Assembly (NCBI GenBank): GCA_010672585.1
Contig: JAAHGF010000041.1
Location: forward strand, 1-51,386
Source: Okeania sp. SIO1I7
GTDB lineage: Bacteria; Cyanobacteriota; Cyanobacteriia; Cyanobacteriales; Microcoleaceae
Direction: 5' to 3'
DNA length: 51,386 bases
A program made the position numbers and the translations under genes. Shown here piece by piece: positions 7,172 through 24,270 of the stretch. The first letter of the stretch is position 1, and each line of letters starts with the position of its first letter. Below the pieces are notes generated by a model. The model ran no database searches, was not told the origin of the DNA, and was given only the letters and a program-made list of their open reading frames with translations.

Positions 7172-7549
7172 ATGATAAATTGGACAAAATCTGTAGCAGT
7201 GAGTACTTTATTATCAATTGCTGCTATTGGTAGTATGAGTCTTACTTCGATAGCAGTAGGATCGCCTCAGAATACTAAAAGTGTAGAGCAATCTATCACT
7301 ACAATCCCCACCGAAGCGGAAGAGCAACTCGCTCATAGTTATGGTCATGGTAGTAAGCATTACGGTAGTTGTCGTCGAGTGGCAACTCGTCATCGCAACT
7401 TGCGGGTGAGGACATATCCTTGGGGTAAAGTTATAAACAGATTACATCGAGGTACTCGTGTTCGTGTTATTGGTTACGATGGTGCTTGGGCAAAAATTTC
7501 ATATCCTTGTTATGGTTATGTATATGCTCATTATTTGAAACATTGTTAA
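7172..7549 (+). CDS. Secreted SH3-domain (SH3b-like) protein
   Basis: A protein of 125 residues. Residues 1-30 form a signal peptide (charged MINWTK, then hydrophobic VAVSTLLSIAAIGSMSL, small residues before the likely cut). The mature part has a spacer and then one bacterial SH3 fold (about 65-125): NLRVRTYPWGKVINRLHRGT, then VRVIGYDGAWAKISYP and a final YVYAHYLKHC. The pattern N-hR-x-yP-x-G-x-h-hxh-G is that of SH3_3 domains. Such proteins usually sit in the periplasm or at the cell wall and bind peptidoglycan or regulate its hydrolases. Two Cys pairs (in CRR, SYPC and KHC) may form disulfides. It is monocistronic, and a transposon-end relic follows immediately. Confidence 0.8.
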   Translation: MINWTKSVAVSTLLSIAAIGSMSLTSIAVGSPQNTKSVEQSITTIPTEAEEQLAHSYGHGSKHYGSCRRVATRHRNLRVRTYPWGKVINRLHRGTRVRVIGYDGAWAKISYPCYGYVYAHYLKHC

Positions 7550-7556
7550 ACCTAAA

Positions 7557-8017
7557 AAGCGTCGGGAGGAAGTACGCAGCGCCTGTTTTAACGGCTGGAT
7601 GAATAACGACGCGCGGGTTTTAACCCGGAGTAAAAGTCTGGTATAATAGAAATAGTAAGTAAGAACAAGGTTTGTCGCCATGACCTTTAGCTAGTACGGT
7701 GAAATTCCGGTGGACAGGAGACGGGGAATTAACTTCCTACGACGGCTGAAAGCAAGTAGGCAGCTAGAGCAGCGAGAAGATTACTCCAACCAGCGCGAGT
7801 AAAACCACTCGTGAAAGCTAACAAAAAAAAGTAGACTCACAGCTAGATTTCCGTCTATGCCGAGGAGTTTAGGAGTCTGTTGACAGGCTTTAAGCAAATG
7901 TGGATTTATGAGGGGCTGCGTGCGGAAGTAGATTCCGCACTTTAAACGCCCCGTCCCATTTGCGGTGGACTAACCACAGAATCCAGGGTGTTTCAACCCC
8001 TGGAGATGTCAACTCAT
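7557..8017 (+). ncRNA. Relic of a tnpB-type element right end with omega-RNA-like structure
   Basis: No coding frame fits, but the stretch is GC-richer than its surroundings and full of stems. These include TGCGGAA/TTCCGCA (7921-7939) inside an outer GGGGC/GCCCC stem, and CCAGGGgtgtttcaACCCCTGG near the end, followed by AGATGTCAAC. The ordering (TGTTTTAAC...GGATGAA at the left; a final GC-hairpin plus GTCAA at the right) parallels the relics at 21599-22131 and 23751-24270. In IS200/IS605 and IS607 elements the omega-RNA (reRNA) of TnpB comes from the 3' end of the element and runs through the right end, with the guide in the flank (established for the family). No tnpB is present. Assignment is by layout and remembered family features, not by a search. 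Confidence 0.45.
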
Positions 8018-8326
8018 CAAATAAATTTTGCTAGGAAAGATCGCAGAGGACTAAGAGTTACTGCGATCGTACTTCCAAACTGCACTAGACGTTCCAAATA
8101 ATATAGAACCCATTTGGTATCTTCATAAATATTAAGTTTTTTTAGTTAGGAGACAGGAGACAGGAGGGAAGATGTGGGGAGAAATAATACAAAAAATTCA
8201 ACACTCCTTCAGATGATTTTTCCTCAAAATTGATGCACGAAAAGACTTGACTACCATAATTCTATAGTTCTCAAATGGGTTCTATAGATCGAGAGCAAAC
8301 AACAAACAAAGAAAAAGGAGTCAAAA

Positions 8327-21598: not shown

Positions 21599-22131
21599 AT
21601 TACCGAAAAGCGACGTTGAAAGCCCCCGTGTTTTAACCTATGCTTTATAAACATCTTTCTTCACATAAAACTTGACAAAAATATTATTTGATGTATTAGA
21701 GGCTGAAAGCTCCTAGTGTCGTTGCGATCGCAACGACAAAAAACAACTTTTAGGAGCACACAAGTTAGTCAATTTGTCAAAGCTTGTAAAACCAACAAAA
21801 TGCTCGTAAGCTTTTGATAGTAGGCATTATCCACTTTTGTAAATAATTTTGCTTATAAAGCATAGGTGTTTTAACCGGGGGATGAAAACAAGCGAGTCGT
21901 TTAGACTAGACAACTTTAGTTGTCCTGTGCTATTACCTGGATGTACAAATGTTTAGACAAAAGTAAGCAGAAAGCTAGGTTTAGACTTAAGCTGACTGTG
22001 TAGGGGCACCTTGACTTGTCCCCAAAGAATATATCTTTGGTCAGCTAAGAAGAAACGGAGCAACAAGGATTTATCCTGTTGCGTAGTATCAACTTAGAAT
22101 CCCCTAGGCAACAGCTGCGGGGAGTAGTCAA
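21599..22131 (+). mobile_element. tnpB-type element right-end relic (copy C), interrupted by a MITE
   Basis: Shares a long match with 23751-24270: TTACCGAAAAGCGACGTTGA at the left, TGTTTTAACCGGGGGATGAA in the middle, and a GC hairpin (CCCC-TAGGC...CTGC-GGGG) followed by AGTAGTCAA at the right. The end layout resembles the 7557-8017 relic and the omega-RNA/right end of IS200/IS605-type elements. A 230-bp element (21637-21866) splits it. No tnpB or tnpA frame is present. Confidence 0.55.
21637..21866. mobile_element. 230-bp MITE with 14-bp perfect terminal inverted repeats
   Basis: Ends are CCTATGCTTTATAA (21637-21650) and its exact complement TTATAAAGCATAGG (21853-21866). An 8-bp target duplication, TGTTTTAA, flanks it at 21629-21636 and 21867-21874. 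The related copy at 23751-24270 has the uninterrupted site. Inside is a CGTTGCGATCGCAACG palindrome containing a HIP1 octamer. No frame long enough for a transposase. Confidence 0.92.
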
Positions 22132-23750: not shown

Positions 23751-24270
23751 TTACCGAAAAGCGACGTTGAGAGCAAGCGTGTTTTAACCGGGGGATGAAA
23801 ACAAGCGAGTCGTTTAACTTTCCTGGCGGGAAGTCCCGCGCTCTCCCGCAGGGGAGCGTCGTATGGGAAAGCCAGGGCCAGGATTCGGATACCTTCATAA
23901 GCTAAACGTTCACAAGCCCTTGACAAGCTAGCTACATTTTGTTATTCTCCAGTTCAAAACAGGGGGAGGACATCACCTCTGTCTAAACAGCGGTCAGGGT
24001 TTCCCAGACTGAAGAATCCCGCGTTGTCCCGTAAGGGCAACGTCGGGAGTATGTCAAGTTGTCCTGTGCTATGATGTTGATTTACAAATGTTTAGACAAA
24101 AGTAAACAGAAAGCTAGGTTTAGACTTAAGCTGACTGTGTAGGGGCACTTTGACTTGTCCCCAGAGAATATATCTTTGGTCAGCTAAGGAGAAAACGAAG
24201 CAACAAGGATTTATCCTGTTGCGTAGTATCAACTTAGAATCCCCTCGGCAAGAGCCTGGGGAGTAGTCAA
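23751..24270 (+). mobile_element. tnpB-type element right-end relic (copy D), interrupted by copy B element
   Basis: Second copy of the relic at 21599-22131, same orientation. It retains the continuous TGTTTTAACCGGGGGATGAA site that is split in copy C. Instead it is interrupted after GCGAGTCGTTTA by the 243-bp element at 23815-24057, then continues GTTGTCCTGTGCTAT. It ends CCCCTCGGCAAGAGCCTGGG-GAGTAGTCAA, a clear hairpin plus end signal. No coding frame. Confidence 0.55.
23815..24057 (+). mobile_element. IS200/IS605-like non-autonomous element, copy B
   Basis: Nearly identical to copy A (1939-2182) in reverse orientation, from TTAACTTTCCTGGCGGGAAG to GGGAGTATGTCAA. Hairpins at both ends: GGCGGGAAGTCCCGC with CTCCCGCAGGGGAG, and CGTTGTCCCGTAAGGGCAACG. 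The middle contains AGGGGGAGGACATCACC and CAGGGTTTCCCAGACTGAAG, which recall omega-RNA segments of tnpB elements. Copy B differs from copy A at only a few bases, so both moved or converted recently. Confidence 0.65.

Follow-up and report, generated by a model that had tools for sequence, protein, structure and literature searches.

The DNA analysed here, hereafter the window, is a stretch of 51,386 nucleotides that corresponds to contig C46 of the 9.48 Mb genome (G000) of Okeania sp. SIO1I7. It contains a short element at positions 7552–8012, immediately 3′ of an AAAC tetranucleotide. An initial annotation, made from the sequence alone, had placed a stand-alone structured RNA at 7557–8017; the element is confirmed by our analysis, while both of its ends are shifted by 5 bases. 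The stretch is non-coding, as had been claimed, with no forward open reading frame of 60 aa or more inside it. The statement that it is richer in GC than its surroundings holds clearly on the right side only (0.41–0.48 against 0.34–0.37), because the GC content on the left ranges from 0.30 to 0.46, the gene adjoining that side having values of 0.44–0.46. Shortly to the right of the element, at positions 8102–8200, lies a repeat that has dozens of genomic matches. The features of the locus are listed below, where R1 denotes a covariance model built from 27 tnpB-less copies of the element and copy counts refer to 55 aligned near-full copies.

7548–7551, forward strand: AAAC target and presumed TAM, part of the target and outside the element; each base conserved in 53–54 of 55 copies.
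7552–8012, forward strand: whole non-autonomous IS200/IS605-type element; its limits are set by empty sites and by the two ends common to 55 near-full copies.
7552–7629, forward strand: left end with two hairpins, CTAAAAA..GGGAGGAAG..TGGATGAATAACGAC..CGGGTTTTAACCCG; matched by nhmmer, at E 2e-24 to 5e-20, to four elements that contain sequence of both tnpA and tnpB.
7630–7830, forward strand: middle block private to the tnpB-less copies, within which the 55 copies have a mean column identity of 0.90.
7639–7647, forward strand: extended -10 promoter-like box TGGTATAAT, with a -35-like TTAACC at 7620; TGnTATAMT in 49 of 55 copies.
7831–8012, forward strand: predicted omegaRNA scaffold; 155 bits with R1, homologous to tnpB 3′ ends, fold z = -5.4.
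7844–7857, forward strand: stem P5 (TAGAT/GTCTA); one pair changes from G-C to A-U, in 7 of 55 copies.
7874–7889, forward strand: stem P6 (AGTCTG/CAGGCT); one pair with a two-sided change, 98.2% of cells paired.
7894–7963, forward strand: stem P7 (GCAAATG.GGA/TCCCATTTGC), with an optional insert in its loop; two-sided changes at 4 of 10 pairs.
7909–7953, forward strand: optional 45-nt nested stem (GGGGC..GTGCGGAA), the nested stem of the initial annotation; in 30 of 55 copies, no two-sided change.
7965–7977, forward strand: stem P8 (GTGG/CCAC); one pair changes from G-C to A-U, in 4 of 55 copies.
7983–8003, forward strand: right-end hairpin P9 (CCAGGG/CCCTGG), also present in the right end of the close tnpB family (CCAGGGTGTTTTAACCCCTGG); no two-sided change.
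8003–8012, forward strand: right tip GAGATGTCAA, with terminal TCAA as the presumed cleavage site; invariant in 55 of 55 copies.
8013–8032, forward strand: presumed guide CTCATCAAATAAATTTTGCT in the host flank, positioned by analogy with the ISDra2 reRNA as described in the passages available from PMC8612924.

The near-full copies were obtained from 76 fetched loci by keeping every place that covers both ends, 29 partial matches being dropped. Including that of the window, the 55 copies (365–499 bp, 11 of them from the same genome) display sharp common ends in unrelated flanks and come from nine genomes carrying three genus labels (G000 and G040–G043; G004; G055–G057); at this length, they are too short to hold tnpB. 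In their left flanks, the conserved AAAC is followed by (C/A)TAAAA, and nothing is clearly conserved further upstream. Within the genome of the window, the best 40 of 501 candidates include at least 12 further matches (E < 1e-30, 72–97% identity over about 200–490 bases). In the taxonomic family, matches, some of them short and weak, occur in 16 of 61 genomes, in 12 of the 52 good-quality genomes and under 6 of the 11 genus labels. An exact-pattern search with a piece of the middle block gave 56 contig stretches, all from Okeania, Hydrocoleum sp. CS-953 or Microcoleaceae MO_207.B10. No match to the element was found in plasmids or phages by blastn, nor in viral contigs by one exact pattern.

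The mobility of the element is documented by empty sites. For seven of the 11 near-full copies of this genome, the left flank with its AAAC was joined to the right flank and compared with four genomes of the same genus. Among the matches listed, four copies have a clean empty site, with no break between AAAC and the right flank: L038, L040 (in three genomes), L041 and L044. At each of these sites, the sequence after AAAC agrees with the flank of the copy over at least 18 nt, without a mismatch. The other sites are less regular: the L037 site in G042 has 12 extra bases at the junction; the site of the window copy lacks the element in G042, with a lower identity and a 6-nt gap just beyond AAAC, is occupied by a different stretch of more than 100 bases in G040, and has a non-homologous right flank in G043; finally, the L039 site is covered by none of the matches listed. 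The joined flanks form one open frame across AAAC for L039 (100 codons), L047 (85 codons) and L038 (55 codons), and no such frame was found for L037, L040, L041 and L044. By eye, L047 looks tnpB-like. Altogether, the element inserts 3′ of AAAC without target duplication. This is the mode of IS200/IS605 transposons, which enter 3′ of a fixed tetranucleotide and do not duplicate it. Sharp ends, a fixed target and ends held in common with tnpA-bearing elements thus identify it as a mobile, transposase-free IS200/IS605-type element of the PATE kind, and this mobile, multi-copy nature goes beyond what the initial annotation had read from the sequence, as does the existence of the tnpA/tnpB parents described below.

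One further locus, L042 (C1:545551-546035), is chimeric: the left end of another family (GGGAGCATGAAAGCCATCG..) is followed by the 3′ half of the element, and modules seem to be exchanged between families.

The parents were recognised by their left ends, which we sought upstream of seven tnpB loci of the close family. The left end of the element, preceded by AAAC, is present at four of them (L268, L269, L271 and L272; nhmmer E 2e-24 to 5e-20); both the left end and the tnpA region are absent from L266 and L270, and the left end is absent from L267. These parent elements, found in the host and sister genomes (the one in the host lying at C28:70504-72434), are 1908–1936 bp long including AAAC and contain the same left end, tnpA, tnpB and the omegaRNA. 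More specifically, the Y1 transposase is encoded between the left end and tnpB on the opposite strand (PF01797, 135.9 bits in L269). None of the four has both genes unbroken: in the C205 element tnpB is open and tnpA lies in two frames, in those of C124 and C308 tnpA is open and tnpB broken, and that of C28 combines a split tnpB with a shortened tnpA frame. The comparison therefore resolves the stand-alone element into a parental left end (7552–7629), a private middle (7630–7830) and a parental omegaRNA (7831–8012).

When the middle block was searched against 30 loci, mostly of the parent type, the only good match was L265, itself a stand-alone copy; three other loci matched it weakly, at a short genomic repeat. 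The possibility that the block is left over from tnpA or tnpB was rejected, homology to it not being found in the parents beyond the weak matches at this repeat. At its 5′ side lies the promoter-like box listed above; since a consensus scan of the single sequence finds this box at chance level (1 against 1.4), it is its conservation among the copies that makes it a candidate promoter. Separately, a short repeat of the TTTGCGTAGCATTCCGTAGGAAAAG type occurs in frame in the tnpB genes of L246, L247, L261 and L279 (as the insert VCVAFRRKR) and also in the private middle of many stand-alone copies; by eye, a related insert apparently lies where each of the two close-family tnpB genes of the host genome is split.

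The 3′ part of the element is strongly structured. The terminal 182 nt are predicted to fold with -72.8 kcal/mol (z = -5.4), none of 200 shuffles being as stable, compared with z = -3.2 for positions 7653–8012 and z = -2.4 for the whole element (2 of 100 shuffles as stable). The stems proposed initially are present, namely GGGGC/GCCCC enclosing GTGCGGAA/TTCCGCAC, and CCAGGG/CCCTGG. In the alignment of 55 rows, 59 locally named pairs are 94.0% paired, and sliding one partner by 1–3 columns lowers the pairing to 35–50%. Two-sided changes occur at nine pairs against 4.4 (sd 1.3) in shuffles, one of 500 reaching nine, and the covariation score is 0.071 against 0.045 (sd 0.002), reached by none of 500, these controls overstating the significance since the rows are related copies. 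In the 3′ domain alone, for which the set comprised 27 of the 28 distinct rows that lack the optional insert of 45 nt, five pairs show two-sided changes against 1.8 (sd 1.0), three of 500 shuffles reaching this value. A measure of further pair types stayed within the range of the shuffles (122 of 500 for the 55 rows, 256 of 500 for the 3′ domain). Note that the helices were picked by eye from the same alignment after RNAalifold, a source of bias for which the slide and shuffle controls were applied; unguided RNAalifold on the full alignment gave only two pairs with two-sided changes and long-range pairs with little covariation. Finally, G-U cells outnumber A-C cells in the omegaRNA stems (114 against 19), as expected for RNA, the numbers of pairs showing each being nearly equal (16 against 15). 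Covariation, which the initial annotation had proposed to look for, is thus present in the named helices of tnpB-less copies.

The R1 model, though built from such copies, leads to tnpB genes. It was run on four genomes, with scores for 150 candidates per genome. At least 65 matches reach 100 bits (14 in G000, 28 in G041, 20 in G042 and 3 in G055), and these we take as the stand-alone class. The 3′ ends of close-family tnpB genes scored 51.9–60.2 bits at seven loci picked from the model's own matches; at four loci chosen by protein similarity alone (L278–L281), all four 3′ ends matched, with 31.5–48.7 bits. In a negative control of 13 loci, ten with the other common right end of the genome and three HEARO loci, the best score was 6.9 bits. 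We also viewed 17 weaker places (24.6–60.2 bits): a tnpB frame runs into the RNA in six (L246, L247, L258, L260, L261 and L262), broken tnpB sequence lies upstream of the RNA in five (L250, L251, L252, L256 and L259), and no tnpB frame of 100 aa reaches the RNA in the other six (L248, L249, L253, L257, L263 and L264). The last six comprise remnants, one truncated stand-alone copy (L257) and, for the weakest, probably chance matches.

In the sister genome G042, three loci (L258, L260 and L261) contain unbroken tnpB frames of about 430 aa, and the RNA begins within their last ~40 codons and ends in the common terminal hairpin CCAGGGTGTTTTAACCCCTGG, or a variant of it differing by one pair, followed by AGACATCAA. 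At L258, for example, the RNA (1241–1422) starts before the end of the frame at 1360 and so overlaps the C-terminal codons. The L258 protein matches guided_TnpB (NF040570) with 160.9 bits, for a cut-off of 100, and OrfB_IS605 with 60.1 bits; the partner TnpB scores above the cut-off for PF01385 and just below it for PF07282 (25.8 against 26.3). The motifs GID, TEESYTS and NAD, which we take to contain the catalytic D-E-D residues of RuvC, are invariant in all eight aligned TnpB proteins. A profile of these eight proteins gave ten matches in the PDB, to chains of the IS605 OrfB type and of Cas12f (best E 1e-7), whereas a phmmer search with a single TnpB gave none among solved structures. A tnpB family with the same 3′ end as the element thus exists and, together with the covariation, this supports the original reading of the locus as an omega-RNA-like region without tnpB, i.e. 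a guide RNA apart from its nuclease. The remark that the element ends as tnpB right ends do was also borne out: the genome contains 33 instances of GAATCC-stem-GATGTCAA, tnpB right ends included, and one of the reversed pattern. Judged from this homology and from its fold, the 3′ ~180 nt of the element are an omegaRNA, which is likely to be, or to have been, under selection as RNA.

In the host genome, the two close-family tnpB genes (on C49 and C28) each fall into two frames, the split lying near codon 68, and an intact close-family partner was not found. Unbroken ones occur in G042, where the three frames coexist with about 20 stand-alone matches. The open tnpB genes of the host belong to a wider family and are 53–57% identical; four have frames of 439–470 aa, their right ends are GTAGTCAA or GAGGTCAA with other hairpins, and their left end is TTAC in the three cases where it was found. 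A TnpB family with the right end GGGGAGGATGTCAA was rejected as a partner, its left end being different and R1 giving no match. As a side observation, G000 is rich in TnpB, with at least 150 matches to PF07282 (the best 150 of 293 candidates).

None of the PF07282 matches listed falls on the contig of the window, which contains two other omegaRNA-like stretches, at 21963–22131 and 24102–24270 (R1 scores of 35.8 and 39.3 bits). They end in GTAGTCAA, like the TTAC-type TnpB family of the genome, and lie in or next to two relics named C and D in the initial annotation; the window thus seems to hold three stand-alone omegaRNA copies from two families. The element had been said to share its start with these relics. 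The layout of the left end is indeed common to them and the full sequence differs: the pattern TTTTAAC..GGATGAA occurs three times in the window against 0.10 expected, one occurrence being the element itself and the other two (21869 and 23782) carrying 3 mismatches. By eye, relic D seems to be interrupted at 23820–24055 by a small element ending in GAATCCCGCG..CGGGAGTATGTCAA.

As for the guide, it would start immediately past the right end, with CTCATCAAATAAATT, i.e. one base before the TCATCAAATAAATT given at the time. A target of this guide next to a TAM had been suggested as something to look for, and an exact AAAC-flanked match was not found in five genomes. With 2–3 mismatches, the search of the five genomes gave 21 places, the flank of the element itself included, against 41 for the reversed pattern; in the host genome alone, it gave six against one.

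Our preferred reading, to which we assign a probability of roughly 0.65, is that the element is a non-autonomous transposon that has kept an omegaRNA of a TnpB family, and probably transcribes it from its own promoter, without tnpA and tnpB, the parental TnpA and TnpB being supplied in trans. The parts of this reading are not equally secure. That the element is a non-autonomous transposon with an omegaRNA is almost certain. Since it carries a guide RNA and no enzyme, it probably lives off the TnpB and the transposase of its larger relatives, and we slightly favour the view that its RNA guides a TnpB in trans in cells with an intact parental TnpB. Loading of a TnpB from another locus, as envisaged initially, is what we infer in general; in the host genome itself, both of the closest tnpB genes are split. 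More tentatively, and with somewhat less than even odds, the copies may form a satellite lineage that uses both parental proteins and has a promoter and a private RNA of about 200 nt of its own, the guides of many loci feeding one TnpB and being multiplexed like a natural guide array.

The proposed cycle would run as follows. The parental TnpA would excise and insert the element as single-stranded DNA. Transcription would start at about 7654 and proceed through GATGTCAA at the right end into the flank, the parental TnpB would bind the 3′ ~180 nt of this RNA, and the first ~16–20 nt of the flank would serve as the guide, by analogy with the ISDra2 reRNA in the passages cited above. TnpB would then cut the empty site left by excision (AAAC plus a match to the guide), and repair from the sister copy would restore the element. 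The AAAC and the flank identity of at least 18 nt observed at the clean empty sites are what this cleavage model needs. Supply in trans is biochemically possible, because ISDra2 TnpB and reRNA expressed from separate plasmids form an active complex, according to the part of PMC8612924 at hand.

The alternatives weighed below carry weights that are not strictly exclusive of this reading. The most serious one, which we regard as unlikely but worth retaining, is passive hitchhiking: the element would be an ordinary PATE, TnpA needs the ends only, and the omegaRNA would be kept by adjoining the right end, with no RNA function. PATEs are indeed described, in the passages available, as arising by core deletion of IS605-type transposons and as being moved in trans (PMC3119063, PMC7290912). 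The middle block has no recognised function, and R1 also finds omegaRNA remnants of the parent families without a tnpB frame, among the six such loci of the 17 weaker ones. However, passive retention is at odds with the pattern of conservation, mean column identity over the 55 copies being higher in the 3′ domain (0.93) than in the left end (0.86), and with the covariation of stems P5–P8, all of which stop 35 nt or more short of the right tip. The promoter-like box is conserved as well, and the scaffold has been kept although the lineage, judged from the single private middle block common to the 55 copies, is old and extends across at least three genus labels. Hitchhiking nevertheless keeps its place because the host genome is without an unsplit close-family tnpB, its open tnpB genes are only 53–57% identical, and the numbers of pairs showing G-U and A-C are close to each other.

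Instead of guiding cleavage, the RNA might titrate or inhibit the TnpB that it binds, or regulate genes nearby; we consider such a decoy or brake improbable. An excess of RNA over nuclease would suit a decoy, and the host genome has at least 14 stand-alone matches at 100 bits or more against two close-family tnpB copies (among the best 150 of 2921 candidates); the private middle could also add a function. But all 55 copies retain the right tip and the flank position that a guide requires, and the data give no pointer to inhibition. A group I or II intron, an IStron-like self-splicing element or an unrelated structured RNA is very improbable: the locus is a structured RNA candidate of 460 nt with a private 5′ block, yet its ends, its target and its right-end RNA are those of a tnpA-tnpB family, and Rfam, intron families included, gave no match in the window at gathering scores and none in the element at E values up to 5. 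An omegaRNA of the IscB/HEARO type can practically be discarded, for although the host genome has eight HEARO matches, three of them above the cut-off, all eight lie on other contigs, the window contains no match to RF02033, none of three HEARO loci is recognised by R1, and the architecture is TnpB-like, with the scaffold at the right end and the guide beyond it.

Stand-alone IscB omegaRNAs, i.e. guide RNAs apart from their nuclease, exist in OMEGA systems. The element would resemble them in this separation and differ from them in both the nuclease and the RNA.

The closest counterparts among mobile elements are the PATEs of Haloquadratum walsbyi and Halanaerobium, transposase-free derivatives of IS605-type transposons (passages of PMC3119063 and PMC7290912); in one of these passages, a Halanaerobium PATE is said to retain, besides 28 nt of the left end and 160 nt of the right end, the final 58 nt of tnpB. 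Like PATEs as described there, the element is transposase-free, has IS605-type ends, makes no target duplication and is presumably moved in trans. In contrast, these passages present PATEs as end-only remnants without an RNA role, whereas the element combines a complete, covarying omegaRNA with a private block and a promoter-like box over at least three genus labels. In ISDra2, the reRNA lies at the 3′ end of the transposon and overlaps tnpB codons, the guide comprises ~16 nt of the flank, and the TAM is the target, TTGAT (available passages of PMC8612924). With this system, on the same passages, the element shares the location of the RNA at the 3′ end, its overlap with tnpB codons in the parent, the flank guide and the identity of TAM and target; unlike it, where the RNA comes from a tnpB locus, it has no nuclease gene and uses AAAC instead of TTGAT. 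In the cases covered by the part of PMC10278001 available, TnpB processes its own mRNA into omegaRNA. RAGATH-18-derived RNAs (PMC11061315) are likewise structured and linked to TnpB, but they belong to IS607 elements, with tnpB upstream of the RNA; they were compared with the element by Rfam scans only. Among the open-licence papers listed by the searches, judged by titles and the starts of abstracts, nuclease-less elements carrying a TnpB omegaRNA were not found; the type of element (PATE) is thus known, and a lineage keeping the complete guide RNA was not found there.

The guides known from the passages cited are products of tnpB loci, whereas here a multi-copy, long-lived lineage would keep the entire guide RNA, together with a promoter box, in elements that have no nuclease. 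If the proposed reading is true, TnpB guidance works in trans in nature, and transposons have RNA-guided parasites of their own. Many guides could then feed one nuclease, which is the kind of step that would be needed toward CRISPR arrays.
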